Of a DNA stretch of 64,000 bases, positions 52,244 to 61,615 are shown in pieces. Under the pieces are notes generated by a model. The model had not been told where the DNA came from, ran no database searches, and was given only the letters and a program-made list of their open reading frames with translations. The stretch's first letter is position 1. Each line of letters opens with the position of its first letter. A program made the translations under genes and the position numbers. The stretch comes from Candidatus Nanohalococcus occultus (GTDB lineage: Archaea > Nanohalarchaeota > Nanosalinia > Nanosalinales > Nanosalinaceae), in the NCBI RefSeq assembly GCF_029207735.1, contig NZ_CP104395.1, forward strand, positions 478,692 to 542,691. The letters are read 5' to 3'.

Positions 52244-54550
52244 TTAAGAATCTTCTATATCGAAAGTCACTCTATCCTCTTCAGAGATTTCAACCGCTTG
52301 AAGCTCTGGTTCAACAGTTTTCTCATCAAGATCCAGGTTCTCGTAGAACGGAGACTCCTTGCCTTCCTCAGCCGAGAAAAACAAGTGATTTTCCGCACGG
52401 GTCATCGCAACGTACATCAAACGCCGCTCTTCATCATAATCCCCGGCCATACATTTGGAGAGTATCTCGTACCGCCAGTTATCGAAGCTGAAACCGTATT
52501 CAGAGTCAAACTTCTTTCTCTGACGCAGACCCACAGGATCCTGGTACTTTAGAACCGAGAAACCGGAGTTCTGACTTGGAAACACTCCTTTGTTTACGTC
52601 GGCGATGAAAACCGCCGGGTACTCCAATCCTTTTGCTGCGTGAACGGTTTGGACTGTAACACTGTTTTCCGATCCCCGGGTTTCCACCTGGTAGATCTCT
52701 CCTTCCTCAATATTGTCTTCTATAAAGCTGATCAGGCTGCCGGTGTTCATGAACGTCGAGCGGAACGCATCCTGTATAACCTCGATTATCCGATCGGAAA
52801 CCTCGTTTTCGTACCCGTAATGTTCGAAAACAGTGTTCGCAACCGCTTTGACGGTATCGAAGGACTCAAGCTTTTCGCGGAATGCCTTCATGTCCGGAGG
52901 ATAGCTTTTGTTCTCCTCGTCCAGAATGGCTTTGGCTTCATCAAGACTGTAACCGGCGTGTTCAAGCACGACAGCCCAGCCTCTCAGGGAATCGGAGTTA
53001 AGTATACGCAGCCATGCCAGCAGTAATAGTGCCTGAGGTGTTTTGAACAGTTCAACCCCGCCCTCGTACTCGACAGGTATGCCGTAGGTACTCGCCAGCT
53101 CCTGTAACTCCAGTCCGAACCGCCGGGTGCGGGTGAGAACCGCGATATCCCCGTACTCAAGTATCTCACCTTCTTCCTTGAGGTATTTTTCGTTATCGAT
53201 TATTTCCTGGATACGGGATAGAACTGCTTTAGGTTCGTTTTCGCTTGTAAACCGCTCGATCTTCGAGCTTTCGAAACCGGTCTTTGATTCAAGGCTGACC
53301 AGTTCTGGTTCAGGAACGTTTTCCCGTCTATGGGCGGGCAGCTCAAGTGCATGTTCTGAAAAATCAAGTATTTTCTGTCCGGACCTGTAGTTTTGCTTTA
53401 ACTCGATTCTCTCGACCTCACCTATGTCCAGGGTTTTTTCCGCCTCCTGAAGCTCTTCTAGGTATTTTTCAAGTCGTTTCTGGAACCGCTGTATGTTCTC
53501 AACTGATGCGTGCTGGAAGCTGTAAATACTTTGTTTCCAGTCCCCGACTGCCGCAATATTCGGTTCCTCGGAGAGTAAAAGTGCGAGTTTCAACTGGATC
53601 TCGTTGGTGTCCTGGAACTCATCGATCATGACATACTCGAAGCTTTCTTTCTCTCGTATCTCCGGGCGCTCATGTAACAGTACGTAGGAAAGTGCCATGA
53701 TGAACGGGAAGTTCAGGTAGTTCCGGGAAAGACAGTGTTCAAGGTACTCGTAGTACAGATCGTGTACGAAGGATTTGAGCTGGTCTCTGTTTTCCTCGAA
53801 GGACCGTCGCATGAAATCCTGGCGTACGCTTTTGGTTCCACGACCACCTCTTATCTCGGCTACATCCGGAGCGTCTTCCGGGAAGTCCTTCCAGCGGTAG
53901 CTGTAAAGCCTGTCTCTTAACTCGCTTTGTCTTTGACCGTTCGAGGTCTCCCGTGGCTTGTTCATCTCCTTGAAGACATCCTTGAAACGCTCGTAGTCCC
54001 CATCCAGGTATTTTTCAGCCTCTCCGAACCAGGAACTTTCTGTCGGGAAGATTCCCTTCGAGGCCAAGGTCTTTAACAGTCCGAGAACTCCGGAAGCCTC
54101 GGTTATACGGTAGAAATCGTTGTACTCGGTGTTTTCTGCTTTGAACCCGCTGTAAAACTCTTTGAACTCCTGGCGTTCCCTGACTTGGCTTTCCATCACA
54201 TCGACTTCCTCGGTTATCTTTTCCTCTATCCCAAGAAGCTCCGGTGCGTTAAACCCGTGGCGCTCCAGTATTTTCTGACAGTGGCTGTGGAAAGTTGAGA
54301 TCGGCGCCTCGAAGATACGGCCAGGCTCGAACTCCGTCAGCTCGACAATTCGCTCGCTCATCTCCTCGGCCGCGTTCCGCGTGAAGGTCGCGAGGAAAAC
54401 ATCTTCCGGCTCGACCCCTTTCTTACCGACGATCCGGGCGTACCTGCGGGTTATAGTGAACGTCTTTCCTGTGCCTGCTCCGGCATCGACTAGGTAGGTT
54501 CCTTCCGTGTTCTCGATTAACTGTTTTTGCTGTTTGTTCGGATCAGTCAT
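52244..54550 (-). CDS. UvrD/AddA-like DNA helicase
   Basis: 768 aa. Superfamily 1 helicase: Walker A AGAGTGKT (residues 23-30), motif Ia LATFTRNAAEEM, motif II DEFQD (310-314), motif III VGDWKQSIYSFQ, motif IV QNYRSG, motif V TVHAAKGLEYP, motif VI YVAMTRAENH. It has no visible C-terminal nuclease domain and is shorter than bacterial AddA. The next gene, overlapping by 4 bp, encodes a PD-(D/E)xK protein, so together they form an AddAB/RecB-like helicase-nuclease pair for DNA end processing. Confidence 0.92.
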   Translation of the reverse strand: MTDPNKQQKQLIENTEGTYLVDAGAGTGKTFTITRRYARIVGKKGVEPEDVFLATFTRNAAEEMSERIVELTEFEPGRIFEAPISTFHSHCQKILERHGFNAPELLGIEEKITEEVDVMESQVRERQEFKEFYSGFKAENTEYNDFYRITEASGVLGLLKTLASKGIFPTESSWFGEAEKYLDGDYERFKDVFKEMNKPRETSNGQRQSELRDRLYSYRWKDFPEDAPDVAEIRGGRGTKSVRQDFMRRSFEENRDQLKSFVHDLYYEYLEHCLSRNYLNFPFIMALSYVLLHERPEIREKESFEYVMIDEFQDTNEIQLKLALLLSEEPNIAAVGDWKQSIYSFQHASVENIQRFQKRLEKYLEELQEAEKTLDIGEVERIELKQNYRSGQKILDFSEHALELPAHRRENVPEPELVSLESKTGFESSKIERFTSENEPKAVLSRIQEIIDNEKYLKEEGEILEYGDIAVLTRTRRFGLELQELASTYGIPVEYEGGVELFKTPQALLLLAWLRILNSDSLRGWAVVLEHAGYSLDEAKAILDEENKSYPPDMKAFREKLESFDTVKAVANTVFEHYGYENEVSDRIIEVIQDAFRSTFMNTGSLISFIEDNIEEGEIYQVETRGSENSVTVQTVHAAKGLEYPAVFIADVNKGVFPSQNSGFSVLKYQDPVGLRQRKKFDSEYGFSFDNWRYEILSKCMAGDYDEERRLMYVAMTRAENHLFFSAEEGKESPFYENLDLDEKTVEPELQAVEISEEDRVTFDIEDS

Positions 54551-57057
54551 TTTCTAGCCTCTATCAGAAGATCTCTTTCCGGCAGGTCATCCGGGTTGCC
54601 ATCGATCGGGAAACCGTTTTCCTTACAACGGTTTAACTCCTCAATCTGCTCGCCTAGGAACTCCTCGAACCTGTCAAGGTCTTTTTTGAAGTAGTTTGCG
54701 TTCCGGATCTTAACCAGTTTTTTAACCGCGCTTTTTACCCCTTTCTCGACGTACTTGTAGTCTCCGACCCTTTCTTTACCTAGCTTGATGAAATCCTCGA
54801 AGAAACGTGATTCAAGGAACTCACTGGTCTCATGGGTATCAGGTACCTCGGTATTTTCTATGAAGTCTTTATACCGTTCTTTACCTATTTTCTCCAGTGT
54901 TTTCCGTCTATCATTTGACTTGGCTACGCCGTCCGTTAGGTACTCGAAGACTTCATCCGTCCCAATGTGTTCTTGGAAGCTCTTCGGTATGTACTCGACG
55001 GTTACAAGGGTTTCGTCTAGATCGCCATCGCCTTTGATGTGATCGCCTATCTCGTGGAGGAAATGGAAAAACGTAAACTTCAGGCGCTCGTCGGGGTTTA
55101 TTTTCCGGTGTTCCGCTAAATACATTATCGGCTGGAAGTTCGGGAAACGGGCGTCCTCGTACATATCGACCTTTGAGGCCTCTATTATCTTGTTTTCGGT
55201 CTTTTTCCTCCCGGACTTGTAATCTATCAGGTGCGCCCGGTTTTTCACGAAATCGATCTTCCCGGTTGCTCCCATCTCCTCGTCGGTAAACTCAAGTTCG
55301 GTTACCTCGAAACGCAGCTCCTTGCCGTACTTTTTGGCAAACTTGTTGCCGGATTCAGCCTCATACTCTTCTATCTCCTTGGAGCTTATCTCCTCTCTGC
55401 GTACGTATTTTTTGATGTTCCTTGTACCTATCTCGAATTCGGTCCGGATCTCATCCAGTTCGATCTCATCCAAGTAAGGCTTTATCTCCTCGACCATGAA
55501 CTCGATGTAGTCCTGTTCTTCGGTAAAATCCGGGTAGTTAACGTAGAACTCGGCGAAATCGTGGAACAACCTTCCTTTCTTCATAACCTTCTTATCGGCG
55601 CTCGGGATCAGCCTATCGAAGTAGTATACTCTTGGAGACAGTGCGAACGAGTTCAACCGGGACTGGCTCAGCATCTCAACCCTCTCTGTTTCTATGTTGG
55701 TCTGTTTTTTAGCGAACCCTCCCTGTCCTTCACGCTGGGAAGGTGCGGTTCTAACAGCTTCCAGCTCCTCGAAGTCGGTCGGAGATACCCCAAGTATCTG
55801 CGTTAGATTAAAGCAGAGTCTTTGTTCGGACTCATCGACCAAGTACCTCTGGTTAGTCCCGGACTGTAACATCAACTCGAACTCATCACGGATCACGTCC
55901 CTCTGTTTTCTCTCATCCGTCCAAGGTTTTTCATCCGGCTCACGGTTCCACTCGGTTGTAAAACCAGCGAAGACAACGTAGTCTCTGTCGATAAACGTCC
56001 CGTTTTCCGGAGTTACAAGCAACACCCCGTTTTCCTCGTTTTCCGATGGATCAAACCTCTGTATGTAGTATTCAAGTTTCGATAGGTTGGCTCTGTTTAC
56101 CTCCCGGTTTTCGAGTCCAAGCCGGTCAAGTACCGCCTTTATCTTATGTGTTTCAGCTCCCAGCTCATCGAGTTTCTCTAAGGCCTCACCGAAGTTCATG
56201 TGCTGTAAAACATTCAACAGTTCTTTGAGGTCTCTGGCATCGGCATGTTCCAGTCTGGAAAGCAGTTTCGGATCGTGGCGCCTTGAAACACTGATTTTCA
56301 GCTGGCTTATCACCGGACGGATATCCTCTACCCGTAAAGGATTGTTCGAGACAGCCGCTCTCATCAAACCAATGTAGGTCCGGAGATTCTCCGATTCCGA
56401 TAAAGCCAGGCTTCTAGTGAACTCGATGCCCTCCGATTCAAGACGTGATTCGATAAGCGAACGATGACGTGAGTTAGAAGGTGATACAACCGCTATATCA
56501 TCCGCTCCTATCTTTTCCGCACTTTCAACGACCGCCTGTGCTAGCTCTCCCGCTGATCTAAACGAGTAAAACTTCCCGAGTTCCCTGCTCTCGTCTTTGA
56601 AGCTGCTGATCGAATCATATTCTTCAGGCAGTATCCTCTTTTCGATTTCGTTGAACCGGTCTTCATCCAAGACAAGCACTGGTCGTTCGATATCCACCGA
56701 TTCCGAGTTGTAAGGGTTCTCAACCTTTTCCATAAGCTCTCTGATGTTTTCTATCTCGGAGTTGTCCAATCCTTTCTCTTTCAGACCTTCCAGCTTGCCG
56801 GTTGACTGTAGGCAGCTTTCCGCGTTTTTCAAAAAGTAAGAGGCCTGTTTCCAGCTCATCTCTTCAGCGAATTTGAGGAAAAGCTTCTGTCGGTACTCGC
56901 CGTCGAACCCGAGTTTCATAGGTGTCGATACCTTTCCTTCTATTCTTTCGTTTAACGGTTCTACAAGCGAGCTATCCGGTACTATAACCGTGGCGTATTC
57001 TTCGGCTTTTTCCGCCAGTTGTTCTATACTATGAGTTTTTCTAACCGAGAAAGGCAT
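54547..57057 (-). CDS. AddB/RecB-like nuclease subunit
   Basis: 836 aa. The C-terminal third (about residues 590-640) has the PD-(D/E)xK nuclease core: GATGKIDFV then HLIDYKSGRKK, followed by FPNFQPIMYLAE. The first 500 residues resemble the inactive helicase part of AddB (LAEKAEEYATVIVPDSSLVE, DDIAVVSPSNSRH); no Walker A is visible there. Its stop overlaps the start of the AddA-like gene, so both proteins are made together. Divergent from rmuC. Confidence 0.85.
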   Translation of the reverse strand: MPFSVRKTHSIEQLAEKAEEYATVIVPDSSLVEPLNERIEGKVSTPMKLGFDGEYRQKLFLKFAEEMSWKQASYFLKNAESCLQSTGKLEGLKEKGLDNSEIENIRELMEKVENPYNSESVDIERPVLVLDEDRFNEIEKRILPEEYDSISSFKDESRELGKFYSFRSAGELAQAVVESAEKIGADDIAVVSPSNSRHRSLIESRLESEGIEFTRSLALSESENLRTYIGLMRAAVSNNPLRVEDIRPVISQLKISVSRRHDPKLLSRLEHADARDLKELLNVLQHMNFGEALEKLDELGAETHKIKAVLDRLGLENREVNRANLSKLEYYIQRFDPSENEENGVLLVTPENGTFIDRDYVVFAGFTTEWNREPDEKPWTDERKQRDVIRDEFELMLQSGTNQRYLVDESEQRLCFNLTQILGVSPTDFEELEAVRTAPSQREGQGGFAKKQTNIETERVEMLSQSRLNSFALSPRVYYFDRLIPSADKKVMKKGRLFHDFAEFYVNYPDFTEEQDYIEFMVEEIKPYLDEIELDEIRTEFEIGTRNIKKYVRREEISSKEIEEYEAESGNKFAKKYGKELRFEVTELEFTDEEMGATGKIDFVKNRAHLIDYKSGRKKTENKIIEASKVDMYEDARFPNFQPIMYLAEHRKINPDERLKFTFFHFLHEIGDHIKGDGDLDETLVTVEYIPKSFQEHIGTDEVFEYLTDGVAKSNDRRKTLEKIGKERYKDFIENTEVPDTHETSEFLESRFFEDFIKLGKERVGDYKYVEKGVKSAVKKLVKIRNANYFKKDLDRFEEFLGEQIEELNRCKENGFPIDGNPDDLPERDLLIEARK

Positions 57058-57112
57058 TCAATTCAGTTAATGTTTCGATAAGATTTTAACCGCTCCGATT
57101 ACAGCCTTTACT

Positions 57113-58024
57113 ATGATCGAAATAGTTCTCGGCGGAGCAGTCATAATTCTCTCAGGCGCGGTATTCTACCTTGTAACCCAACAGGAAGAACCGGATATCG
57201 ACGTGGAAGTCGACCCGGATAAGGTCCGTGGGGCAGTATCTGAATCCTGGCAGAACCTTAAACTCGATGAGAAGATAGGGTCGGTCGAAAAGCAGATGGA
57301 GAACGTACAGAGCGAAGCCGAGAAAATCCAGGATCTACACCGAGATATTGAAACAATGCTGGCGAACCCTCAGGAACGCGGAGAGTTCGGGGAACGAAAA
57401 CTGGAGGACTTGCTGGCCCGCCATCTGCCGAGCGATATGTATGGCACACAGGAGACGGTTGTAGGCCGGAAAAAACCGGATGCCTACATTCAGTCAAGTG
57501 CCGGTAAGATCTGTATAGACTCGAAGTTCCCACTGGAGAGCTTCCGACGGATGCAGGAGGCTGAAGACGAGAAGGAAAAACAGAAGCATTCGAACAAGTT
57601 CCGGCGTGCTGTCAAAAAACAGCTACAAGAGGTAAAGAAAAAGTACGTTAAACCGGAGAAAGGAACCACGGACTATGCCTTCGAGTTCGTTCCATCCGAG
57701 ACCGTCTACTACTATCTTGTGAGAGAGGAATATGAGCTTCTAAACGAGTACACACGTGAAGGCGTACAGGTAGTCTCTCCTTTAACACTAGGTCACAAGC
57801 TTGAACTGGTTAAAAGCGATGTGAAGACAGCACAGCTCTCGAAGGAAGCTGAGAAGGTTAAAAGTCAGTTACAGTCGTTTGAAAACAGCTTCAGAGACGT
57901 CTTCGATGAGTGGTCGACGTTTTACAAGCACGTCAGGAACTCGAAGAAGAAAGCCGATGACGTTGAATCAAGCCTTGAGCGACTGGAAGACGAGTTCGAG
58001 TCAGTGAACCGTCTGGAAAACTAA
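57113..58024 (+). CDS. rmuC: DNA recombination protein RmuC
   Basis: 303 aa. One N-terminal membrane helix (VLGGAVIILSGAVFYLV), a coiled coil (about residues 45-85), then the RmuC core: NPQERGEFGERKLEDLLARH, PDAYIQSSAGKICIDSKFPLE and VKSDVKTAQLSK. RmuC is a predicted restriction-endonuclease-fold protein linked to control of DNA inversion and genome stability. It faces the AddAB-like operon with a 55-bp shared promoter region, so both may answer to DNA damage. Confidence 0.93.
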   Translation: MIEIVLGGAVIILSGAVFYLVTQQEEPDIDVEVDPDKVRGAVSESWQNLKLDEKIGSVEKQMENVQSEAEKIQDLHRDIETMLANPQERGEFGERKLEDLLARHLPSDMYGTQETVVGRKKPDAYIQSSAGKICIDSKFPLESFRRMQEAEDEKEKQKHSNKFRRAVKKQLQEVKKKYVKPEKGTTDYAFEFVPSETVYYYLVREEYELLNEYTREGVQVVSPLTLGHKLELVKSDVKTAQLSKEAEKVKSQLQSFENSFRDVFDEWSTFYKHVRNSKKKADDVESSLERLEDEFESVNRLEN

Positions 58025-58612: not shown

Positions 58613-58679
58613 AACCGAAATTAGTCTTCAACGAGTTAAAAACCGACCGCATGGAAGAAAAGAAAGTAGGAAAGATATG

Positions 58680-59039
58680 TAGAGTTTTTTGAGCGGTTTC
58701 CTAAGCCGCTTTTGAGACATCACCTCGTCGAACAAATCAAGGTTTTTGGCGTTTCAATCTGTTTTAGTGTTTTTTCGTTTTGTTTGTTGGCGATTGTGTG
58801 TTAGACCTTCTTGGCGTTCCGTGTTTAGTGTCGGAAATGTTTGCTCCGAATTTTTTCGGCCGAGGTCTGCCCACCGGAGCCTCCTGAGTTGAAAGCTCCG
58901 TCAGATCGTCTCAGCCTACTTATCCTGTACTACATATACAGGATGTTCGGAATATTAGATTGAATAGTGTTTTTGCTCCTATAGCTGGAACTTACGGCGT
59001 TGTTGCGATACCTGAACCGGTGTGCTTCCAGGAGCATAT
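58680..59039 (-). ncRNA. Candidate structured RNA of unknown family
   Basis: The 530-bp gap 58613-59141 has no convincing gene. Read on the minus strand it folds well: a 5' hairpin (59032-59036 with 58974-58978, and 59026-59031 with 58985-58990, six-base bulge); a perfect 8-bp stem with 7-nt loop (58937-58944 / 58922-58929); a closing helix (58908-58913 / 58713-58718); inside it a hairpin (58895-58900 / 58875-58880) and a three-way unit (58863-58868 / 58803-58808 holding hairpins 58855-58859/58846-58850 and 58832-58836/58817-58821); and a 3' hairpin (58692-58710). Loops are A-rich on this strand, as in functional RNAs. RNase P or SRP RNA have this size, but I do not see their conserved cores. 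Confidence 0.45.
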
Positions 59040-59059
59040 ACTAACTCTGTTGACGAGGG

Positions 59060-59069
59060 TTTATAAAAG
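59060..59069 (-). promoter_or_regulatory. TATA box for the candidate structured RNA
   Basis: Minus-strand CTTTTATAAA would start transcription about 25 nt downstream, near 59039, exactly at the first hairpin of the candidate RNA. Confidence 0.45.
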
Positions 59070-59141: not shown

Positions 59142-59762
59142 CTATAGCTCTGTCTCGATTAGTTTCTGTTTGATCTGCTCGACTGTATCCGTGAGATAGA
59201 CCTCCCCGAATAGTGCGACCACCAGCCCTCCGGATATATCGAATATGAGATCCTTCATCGTATCCTCCAGACCGTACTGAGTTAAGACAGTCTCTCCTCC
59301 AAGTATCTCGGCAGCGCCGGATATCCCGAACTCCAGAAGCTCCCAGACAACTCCGAAAGCAACCACGAACAGAAGTATGAAGATGAAAAACAGCTTTGAA
59401 GGTAGATGTATCTGTTCGTAGTGTTCATCGATCGCTCTAATAGTTGCGTAGCCAGCTCCAGCCACCACTGATGAAGAAAGAGTATGTGTTAGATGATCCC
59501 ACCACCAAACAGTTCCGTAAGGACCTAAAGTACCGGCAGCATGTAGGAATACCGCAGAGGTAAGCCAGAGGACGAGCAACGGATTCATCTCTATGCCGTA
59601 ATCTCTTTCAATCAACGCAGGAACGAATGTGACGGAAAAGGAAACCAGCGAGTTCACAATTATCCCTGTATCGCCCGTATAGAATCCTATTCCAAGCCCT
59701 AGGAGCATGAAGACGCGCATAAACCGAGCTAACCGATTCTGATTCCGTTCAGAAAGCCTCAT
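59142..59762 (-). CDS. DUF2238-like membrane protein
   Basis: 206 aa with about six membrane helices. WWWDHLTHTLSSSVVAGAGYA, VVWELLEFGISGAAEIL and GLEDTMKDLIFDISGGLVVAL follow the DUF2238/YjdF pattern (D-x-x-x-H, W-E-x-x-E, D-T-x-x-D-L). The conserved acidic and His residues suggest a membrane metal site. Function unknown. It overlaps the next gene at 59749 by 14 bp. Confidence 0.8.
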   Translation of the reverse strand: MRLSERNQNRLARFMRVFMLLGLGIGFYTGDTGIIVNSLVSFSVTFVPALIERDYGIEMNPLLVLWLTSAVFLHAAGTLGPYGTVWWWDHLTHTLSSSVVAGAGYATIRAIDEHYEQIHLPSKLFFIFILLFVVAFGVVWELLEFGISGAAEILGGETVLTQYGLEDTMKDLIFDISGGLVVALFGEVYLTDTVEQIKQKLIETEL

Positions 59763-60339
59763 TTTTCAGCCTCCGATCTCTGCGTTTGAAATAGATGTTG
59801 AAAGCAAATCCTGCTATAATACCGGCTAGAAGCGCCGAGGCAAACTCCCACATTAAAGCATGCTCCGAGACAATGAGAGACGTCTGTAAGTAAATATCGG
59901 AAAGCCAGCGCGCCACTGCCCATATACCGGAGACTGCTACCGTTGTAACTGATACAAGCGGCACAGCAAACGCCGGCGTGGTTTTAAACGAAGTGAATGT
60001 ATCGAGTTCTGTGACAACAAGGAGTGCGATACCTGCTGCCGTAATATAGTTAAGAGTATTCGATGCCACAAAGCCTAGCTCCATACCTTTGATTGTGAAA
60101 GGTACAGCCAGTAAAGCCAGTATTTCAAACGGTACAAGAGCCTTAGGTTCAAGGAAAACCACGGGCGGCACGAATACGAGTACGAGTACTGTAAAACCGT
60201 ACAGAGACCAGGTTAAAGCTCCATCGAAAAGAATGTTAAACGAGTTAGCTAGAAGATAAAGTGCGAAAACAGCTGATAGAGCCGTGTTAGCCTTCTTGCC
60301 GAACACATTCGAGGTCTGTAGGTAGTCTTTCACCGGCAA
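59749..60339 (-). CDS. Membrane protein, partner of the DUF2238-like gene
   Basis: 196 aa, about six predicted membrane helices and no recognised family. The C-terminus is basic (YFKRRDRRLKNEAF), likely cytoplasmic. The overlap with the downstream gene implies coupled translation. Confidence 0.65.
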   Translation of the reverse strand: MPVKDYLQTSNVFGKKANTALSAVFALYLLANSFNILFDGALTWSLYGFTVLVLVFVPPVVFLEPKALVPFEILALLAVPFTIKGMELGFVASNTLNYITAAGIALLVVTELDTFTSFKTTPAFAVPLVSVTTVAVSGIWAVARWLSDIYLQTSLIVSEHALMWEFASALLAGIIAGFAFNIYFKRRDRRLKNEAF

Positions 60340-61333: not shown

Positions 61334-61615
61334 TTACCGGTAGCTCGTGTTTTCCAGTCCTATCTCCGCGAGAAACAGGTGTGCGGCGATCTGGTGAGAG
61401 CAGGTATCTCCCTGGAAGGCGCACGGACAGAAAGTCTCCCCTGTATCGATATCGACCCCCAAGGTGTAATCCGAGGTGTTTCCCTCAACCTTGAACTGGT
61501 AACGGTCATCGGAGCCGAAAAGCAGCTTTATCCGCTCCTCATCCACTATTTTCCGTGCCTTACCCCATTTGTGTAGATTCTCCCGTTGAGGTCTCGAGAT
61601 GTTTTCAAAGTCCAT
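61334..61615 (-). CDS. SWIM zinc-finger protein
   Basis: 93 aa. FCPCAFQGDTCSHQIAAHLF is a complete SWIM motif, C63-x-C65-x6-C72-x-H74. The N-terminal half is basic (NLHKWGKARKIVDEERIKLL) and could bind nucleic acid. Stand-alone SWIM proteins are common in halophilic archaea, and some work with DNA-recombination proteins. Confidence 0.85.
   Translation of the reverse strand: MDFENISRPQRENLHKWGKARKIVDEERIKLLFGSDDRYQFKVEGNTSDYTLGVDIDTGETFCPCAFQGDTCSHQIAAHLFLAEIGLENTSYR

Follow-up and report, generated by a model that had tools for sequence, protein, structure and literature searches.

The question posed by this locus is what a seemingly gene-free stretch of DNA encodes in the genome of Candidatus Nanohalococcus occultus SVXNc, a nanohaloarchaeal ectosymbiont of Haloferax whose genome (G000 in what follows) consists of one contig of 948,351 bases. 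The stretch lies in a window of 64,000 nt, to which coordinates refer unless another contig is named. A preliminary description of the window had interpreted it as a structured RNA read from the minus strand, either a divergent RNase P RNA or a member of a new RNA class. By comparison with related genomes, we find a free-standing RNA gene of approximately 360-380 nt that matches no described RNA family and has been found so far only in one nanohaloarchaeal family. The structure of the RNA is near certain, and we regard it as practically assured that it represents a real and conserved RNA family. Sequence comparison shows that the gene is served by a dedicated TATA promoter and that its predicted transcript begins at an AUG, from which runs an always-open mini-ORF with its stop codon in the loop or 3′ arm of a conserved hairpin. 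It further has a covarying core containing an invariant AGUA/GAA, an AGGUGA element in its tail and no conserved neighbor. With confidence that is evenly balanced, we propose that it functions as an autonomous, structured, regulatory RNA that would engage ribosomes and for which translation would carry more weight than the resulting peptide.

Layout of the RNA gene

The RNA gene occupies positions 58652-59069 of the window on the minus strand, with a TATA promoter of its own. Its elements are arranged as follows in 5′ to 3′ order.

59060-59067, minus strand: TATA box TTTATAAA, assigned from sequence; start-to-start distance to the ATG of 30-31 nt in all 12 genomes
58930-59037, minus strand: leaderless mini-ORF of 35 codons plus stop TAG (58932-58930), MLLEAHRFRYRNNAVSSSYRSKNTIQSNIPNILYM; frame open in 12/12 genomes
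58975-59035, minus strand: 5′ hairpin H1, beginning directly behind the AUG; a hairpin folds there in all 12 sequences
58946-58952, minus strand: closing helix B, 5′ strand UUCCGAA; covarying helix
58922-58944, minus strand: hairpin A (AUCCUGUA...UACAGGAU), whose loop contains the ORF stop codon; supported by pairing and two-sided changes
58917-58920, minus strand: AGUA half of the predicted AGUA/GAA bulged-G (sarcin-ricin type) motif; invariant in 13/13 sequences, assigned from the established consensus
58858-58916, minus strand: stems C, D and E (helices 3-5 of the covariation test), with the near-invariant hexaloop AACUCA at 58890-58885
58855-58857, minus strand: GAA half of the AGUA/GAA motif; CGAAA invariant in 13/13 sequences
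58845-58850, minus strand: closing helix B, 3′ strand UUCGGA; covarying helix
58675-58844, minus strand: A/C-rich tail by composition, mostly single-stranded in the consensus, with no covarying long-range helix
58719-58726, minus strand (within the tail): GAGGUGAU, complement of AUCACCUC at the 16S rRNA 3′ end; no start codon at the usual distance
58652-58674, minus strand: T-rich stretch, probable transcription terminator by sequence; all 12 genomes have T-rich DNA behind the tail

Several elements of this layout had been anticipated. The TATA box is where it had been proposed, at 59067-59060, and the pyrimidine-rich DNA noted past the last hairpin corresponds to the T-rich run at ~58674-58652. 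Two of the helices put forward earlier, an outer closing helix (58964-58957 with 58760-58753) and a 3′ hairpin (58710-58692), are missing from the consensus of five relatives; a conserved closing helix does exist, but it is formed by 58952-58946 with 58850-58845. What had been described as A-rich loops is for the most part the unstructured A/C-rich tail. The leaderless ORF, the stop in the hairpin and the anti-Shine-Dalgarno complement had been missed, and these alter the likely mode of action.

Distribution among genomes

A DNA search of 60 relatives yielded four true homologues, centered on a 109-nt core. A first covariance model, built from five sequences, located the core in 12 of the 60 genomes, all belonging to one nanohaloarchaeal family, and a second, built from 13 sequences, returned the identical 12 genomes (125-nt core) whether the set searched comprised 28 genomes of the phylum or 394 archaeal genomes. 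The core is thus present in 12/19 genomes of the family and in 0/9 other genomes of the phylum, and its homologues span 9 genera. Carriers include two further cultivated organisms, Candidatus Nanohalovita haloferacivicina BNXNv (G008; 1,046,959 bases) and G009 (973,463 bases), which we take to be Candidatus Nanohalobium constans. An exact-motif scan of 84,980 species retrieved Nanohaloarchaea records that score as true with the covariance model and seven bacterial records that score nothing with it. Spread by phages or plasmids was considered and rejected: a phage and plasmid search for the RNA gave no match, viral pattern matches score as chance, and the best of them (L150) lacks the TATA/ATG arrangement and by eye resembles ordinary coding sequence.

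Most near-complete genomes of the family carry the RNA, unlike G007, a genome of the same family in one contig and 95% complete in which the core is absent at E 10. The RNA has probably been lost or has strongly diverged in G007, which indicates that it is not essential everywhere. Nanohaloarchaea archaeon SG9 (G002, CP012986) harbors a second, divergent core at L031:4435-4547. Situated 1.4 kb downstream of the first copy, it comes with a separate TATA-like box and ATG and a 61-codon frame that crosses the core with no stop in hairpin A.

A covarying fold on the minus strand

Folding of the minus strand of 58680-59045 gives -90.7 kcal/mol (z -2.4, 0/100 shuffles as good), and the plus strand of the same interval is weaker against its own shuffles (z -1.5). 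Since folding of one sequence alone is weak proof, it is the comparative evidence that carries the structure claim. In 13 aligned cores, 93.5% of cells are paired versus 83.2% in shuffles, 22 of 36 core pairs have changed on both sides versus 9.9 in shuffles (0/500; 13 sequences) and pairing is below 50% when partners are slid by one base, these being values from an alignment fitted to the covariance model and hence biased in its favor. When five sequences were aligned without structure, core and H1 together displayed two-sided changes in 20 of 53 pairs versus 9.4, with H1 itself contributing 11 of 17 pairs. Hairpin A is paired in 94% of cells and has two-sided changes in 6 of its 10 pairs. 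Moreover, core pairs contain 62 G-U cells versus 6 A-C cells, an excess expected of a minus-strand RNA but not of DNA or of the opposite strand, which identifies the minus-strand RNA as the molecule that folds. Fold energy, recovery by covariance model in 12 genomes, covariation and the G-U to A-C ratio therefore confirm the structured minus-strand RNA of the preliminary description, which had named covariation in related genomes as a check.

The AGUA/GAA letters are invariant in 13/13 sequences, and their two opposed halves flank a helix. The bulged-G, or sarcin-ricin (loop E), motif has as its textbook consensus an AGUA opposite a GAA, flanking a helix, and the core is accordingly predicted to contain one such motif. 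The hexaloop capping the stems reads CAACUCAG in 11/13 sequences and CAACUAAG in 2/13. The possibility that H1 and the AACUCA loop form a switch (CUCA with UGAG) was weighed by eye and discarded, as G000 and G001 have no partner sequence.

A leaderless open frame ending in a hairpin

The reading of the stretch as gene-free does not hold for its first 108 nt (59037-58930, minus strand), which constitute a frame kept open in 12/12 genomes. The frame runs from the AUG for 33, 35 or 38 codons, varying in length by whole codons only, and over the 12 stretches it contains 0 internal stops, compared with 32 and 28 in the other two frames. The chance of such openness is ~3e-6, a rough figure obtained as a shuffle-based product with one sequence per genus that ignores deeper kinship. 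In 11 genomes the stop falls within the hairpin A loop, and G005 has it where the 3′ arm of that hairpin ends; its type is TGA (8 genomes), TAA (3) or TAG (1), differing even between the sister species G003 and G012. An open frame and a stop preserved through switches of type point to translation, since RNA structure alone would not impose them. Read-through into a longer protein was rejected: beyond the stop codon, frame 0 and the other frames are closed with about equal frequency, and frame 0 breaks early in G003, G012 and G010.

Little of this conservation extends to the peptide. Its sequence is not conserved across genomes, and codon changes between close pairs are mostly non-synonymous (6:2, 6:1 and 13:1). 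The common C-terminal NILY is dictated by the hairpin sequence, and it is altered in G006 and G009, in which the hairpin has covaried. Each of the 12 peptides is net basic, compared with an average excess of 6.2 acidic over basic residues per 100 in the 48 larger ORFs of the window. Non-synonymous change and basic charge together suggest that translation, rather than its product, is what seems to be kept.

These data bear on two alternatives. According to the first, the RNA would be a structured regulatory or scaffold RNA acting through its core, with AGUA/GAA and AACUCA as a protein platform, or through RNA pairing, and the mini-ORF would be incidental or stabilizing. We judge this unlikely, though less so than the other alternatives: the most invariant letters lie in the core and not in the ORF, and the divergent second copy of G002 retains the core while lacking the hairpin A stop, but an incidental frame sits poorly with a reading frame that is stop-free in 12/12 genomes, when the other frames average >2 stops each, and with a stop that changes type and is never lost in the main copies. 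According to the second, which we deem improbable, the locus would be a dual-function RNA or small mRNA, with an active peptide of 33-38 residues (e.g. ribosome-bound or membrane-associated) and a structured 3′ UTR. The leaderless promoter dedicated to the frame in 12/12 genomes and the consistently basic peptides would fit this proposal; the unconserved, mostly non-synonymously changing sequence and a C-terminus that follows the hairpin through its covariation argue against it.

An anti-Shine-Dalgarno complement in the tail

AGGTGA is outstanding among the words of the tail, occurring in 9/12 tails, with ~0.01-0.03 expected per tail, and in 7/9 genera versus 0.14 expected. It is complementary to the 3′ end of 16S rRNA, GGATCACCTCC, which is present once in the genome, at the apparent end of the 16S gene. 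Most copies, inspected by eye, have no start codon at the usual distance after AGGUGA. The element lies ~25 nt behind the core in G010 and G016 versus 110-130 nt otherwise, so that the sequence has been kept while the element moved; it is absent from the tails of G009 and G005. In the tails of G016 (L058) and G010 (L063), AGGUGA precedes a conserved UUACGCUGCCGAAA, in swapped order, and in those of G015 and G008 UUACGCUGCC or a similar sequence comes first. Pairing of AGGUGA with the CU-rich stretch 5′ of hairpin A, assessed by eye, was dismissed as good only in G003 and G012. In Haloferax volcanii, initiation at 5′-UTRs is not driven by a Shine-Dalgarno mechanism (PMC3986360), from which it follows that AGGUGA, if used here, would serve something else, and also that the pairing may be unused.

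Proposed mode of action

The features to be explained jointly are the leaderless start, the obligatory reading frame, its stop codon within a hairpin, a core that a terminating ribosome would disturb and a tail capable of pairing with free small subunits; their simplest common reading is a ribosome-engaging RNA that changes shape upon translation. In the scheme we put forward, a ribosome would load directly on the leaderless 5′ AUG and melt H1; it would then stop in hairpin A, where its footprint would open hairpin A and helix B and remodel the core; and AGGUGA would pair with the free anti-Shine-Dalgarno sequence of the small subunit, holding or recapturing it. The RNA might thereby act as a reporter of free ribosomes or as a restraint on them. 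The peptide would be a by-product, as suggested by its being unconserved and basic within an acidic proteome. On the other hand, H1 beside the AUG would hinder leaderless initiation, and this counts against the ribosome-engaging reading, as do the tails of G009 and G005 that lack AGGUGA, the Haloferax volcanii result on Shine-Dalgarno initiation and the missing RNA of G007. The two alternatives, protein binding with an incidental frame and a peptide-encoding mRNA, account less well for the frame or for the loss of the peptide.

A further-reaching version of the same scheme, possible but doubtful in our estimation, is that of a new DPANN class of ribosome-catching RNAs, in which the mini-ORF would load the ribosome, termination in the hairpin would switch the fold and the tail would tether the small subunit, so as to sense, store or rescue ribosomes in a symbiont whose nutrient supply is irregular. 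If true, the proposed mode of action would add a structured RNA class to DPANN archaea, as well as an RNA switch coupled to the translation of a peptide without conserved sequence. The RNA is also a target with a covariance model of its own in two organisms grown in laboratory co-culture, SVXNc and BNXNv, RNA reads being in existence for SVXNc, and it shows that the 'organism-specific' ncRNAs of such genomes can belong to families traceable by structure search instead of BLAST.

Neighboring genes

No conserved neighbor gene of the RNA was found among the compared genomes. Neighbor genes are common mainly to sister species; different genera have different downstream genes, and in G006 and G009 the gene that follows is encoded on the opposite strand. 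Unshared neighbors and opposite orientation indicate that the RNA is a gene in its own right and not the leader of one target, and control of the next gene was ruled out by the differing neighbors. A leader-peptide attenuator or riboswitch for the downstream gene is for the same reasons highly improbable, all the more with a T-rich end located before the next gene, even if a leader ORF that terminates within a hairpin is attenuator-like and the readable downstream genes are mostly on the same strand as the RNA.

Comparison with known RNA classes

An Rfam search, which the preliminary description had recommended, found no family on the right strand at the gathering cut-off or at E 10, and this result, combined with a fold that covaries, supports the new RNA class envisaged there. 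The archaeal RNase P RNA model (RF00373) has no match in the region at E 10. A separate RNase P RNA accompanies the present RNA in G016, G010 and G006 (above the Rfam cut-off) and, with strong matches, in G008 and G015, which leaves the earlier suggestion of a divergent RNase P RNA unsupported and argues against the RNA filling a missing RNase P place in G000. Searching G000 with the RF00373 model and with G008 DNA as query returned nothing credible for RNase P RNA, the best RF00373 match (13.4 bits) being away from the RNA locus and lying, it appears, within a protein-coding gene; the protein Rpp30 (PF01876) likewise went undetected in G000, and the RNase P of this organism is perhaps protein-only or very divergent. 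The SRP RNA (RF01857) of G000 is found at another locus, C1:253030-253297 (120 bits). Archaeal RNase P and SRP RNAs are likewise autonomous, structured and of similar length, but they reside at separate loci and their covariance models do not match the present RNA.

Guide RNAs and tmRNA were also considered. For H/ACA RNA there is no Rfam match and ACA is not outstanding among enriched tail words, the guide pocket being judged by eye. The C/D test returned only a plus-strand snoZ119 match of 18.8 bits, far below the cut-off of 70; with regard to the boxes (RUGAUGA, CUGA), the GUGAU of some tails is partly like box C, and no conserved box D stands out. ARAGORN finds only two tRNAs in the window and no tmRNA, for which Rfam has no match either. 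Bacterial tmRNA is, like the present RNA, a free-standing structured RNA whose short frame is terminated by a stop codon within a hairpin or close to one; the present RNA differs in having no tRNA-like domain and a frame that begins at its own AUG. RNAIII, SgrS, SR1 and the trp leader also couple a short ORF to RNA structure, but here the peptide is unconserved, there is no conserved downstream gene, the start is leaderless and the host is archaeal.

Among archaeal RNAs, rancRNA_s194 of Haloferax volcanii is likewise intergenic and is proposed to act by ribosome binding (PMC6104027). An ORF, a stop in a hairpin and AGGUGA do not feature in the passages describing it (PMC6104027); the present RNA, for its part, is complementary to the 16S 3′ end and would bind the ribosome there. 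Very highly expressed ncRNAs, SVXNc_nc0001 to nc0005, were reported in SVXNc in 2023, nc0002 being SRP RNA and the others belonging to no family (PMC10266531). From single-sequence folds, the main text of that report assigns them a hairpin-hinge-hairpin-tail, H/ACA-like architecture, likens them to H/ACA-type ribosome-associated RNAs, finds no significant BLAST matches and mentions a homologue of nc0001 in BNXNv (PMC10266531). The present RNA, which shares with nc0001 both the strain and a homologue in BNXNv (G008), may be one of these unassigned ncRNAs, and transcription of the locus may thus be documented already in PMC10266531. It differs from SVXNc_nc0001 to nc0005, as described in that main text, in its homologues in 9 genera, its covarying fold and its mini-ORF; none of the passages of it considered here mentions the family, its covariation, the mini-ORF or the anti-Shine-Dalgarno element. 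A divergent form of a known RNA, be it RNase P, SRP, H/ACA or C/D guide RNA, is already largely refuted and scarcely credible, for the lack of an RNase P RNA in G000 and the H/ACA-like label given in the main text of PMC10266531 are outweighed by coexistence with RNase P RNA in relatives and SRP RNA in G000, by an Rfam search without a match on this strand to E 10 and by tail words among which no guide-RNA box is outstanding.

Other features near the locus

The RNA is adjoined by a DUF2238-like membrane protein and its 196-aa neighbor (59142-60339, minus strand), and G008 and G015 have the same pair within ~6 kb of the RNA, which amounts to a trace of regional synteny. A small Cys/His ORF resembling a SWIM zinc finger is encoded at 61334-61615 (minus strand), 2.3 kb from the RNA, and in SG9 a SWIM-like ORF (L031:3316-3603, plus strand) is located directly downstream of the RNA. 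At 54547-58024, proteins of the PD-(D/E)XK nuclease superfamily and of the RmuC family are encoded side by side on opposite strands.
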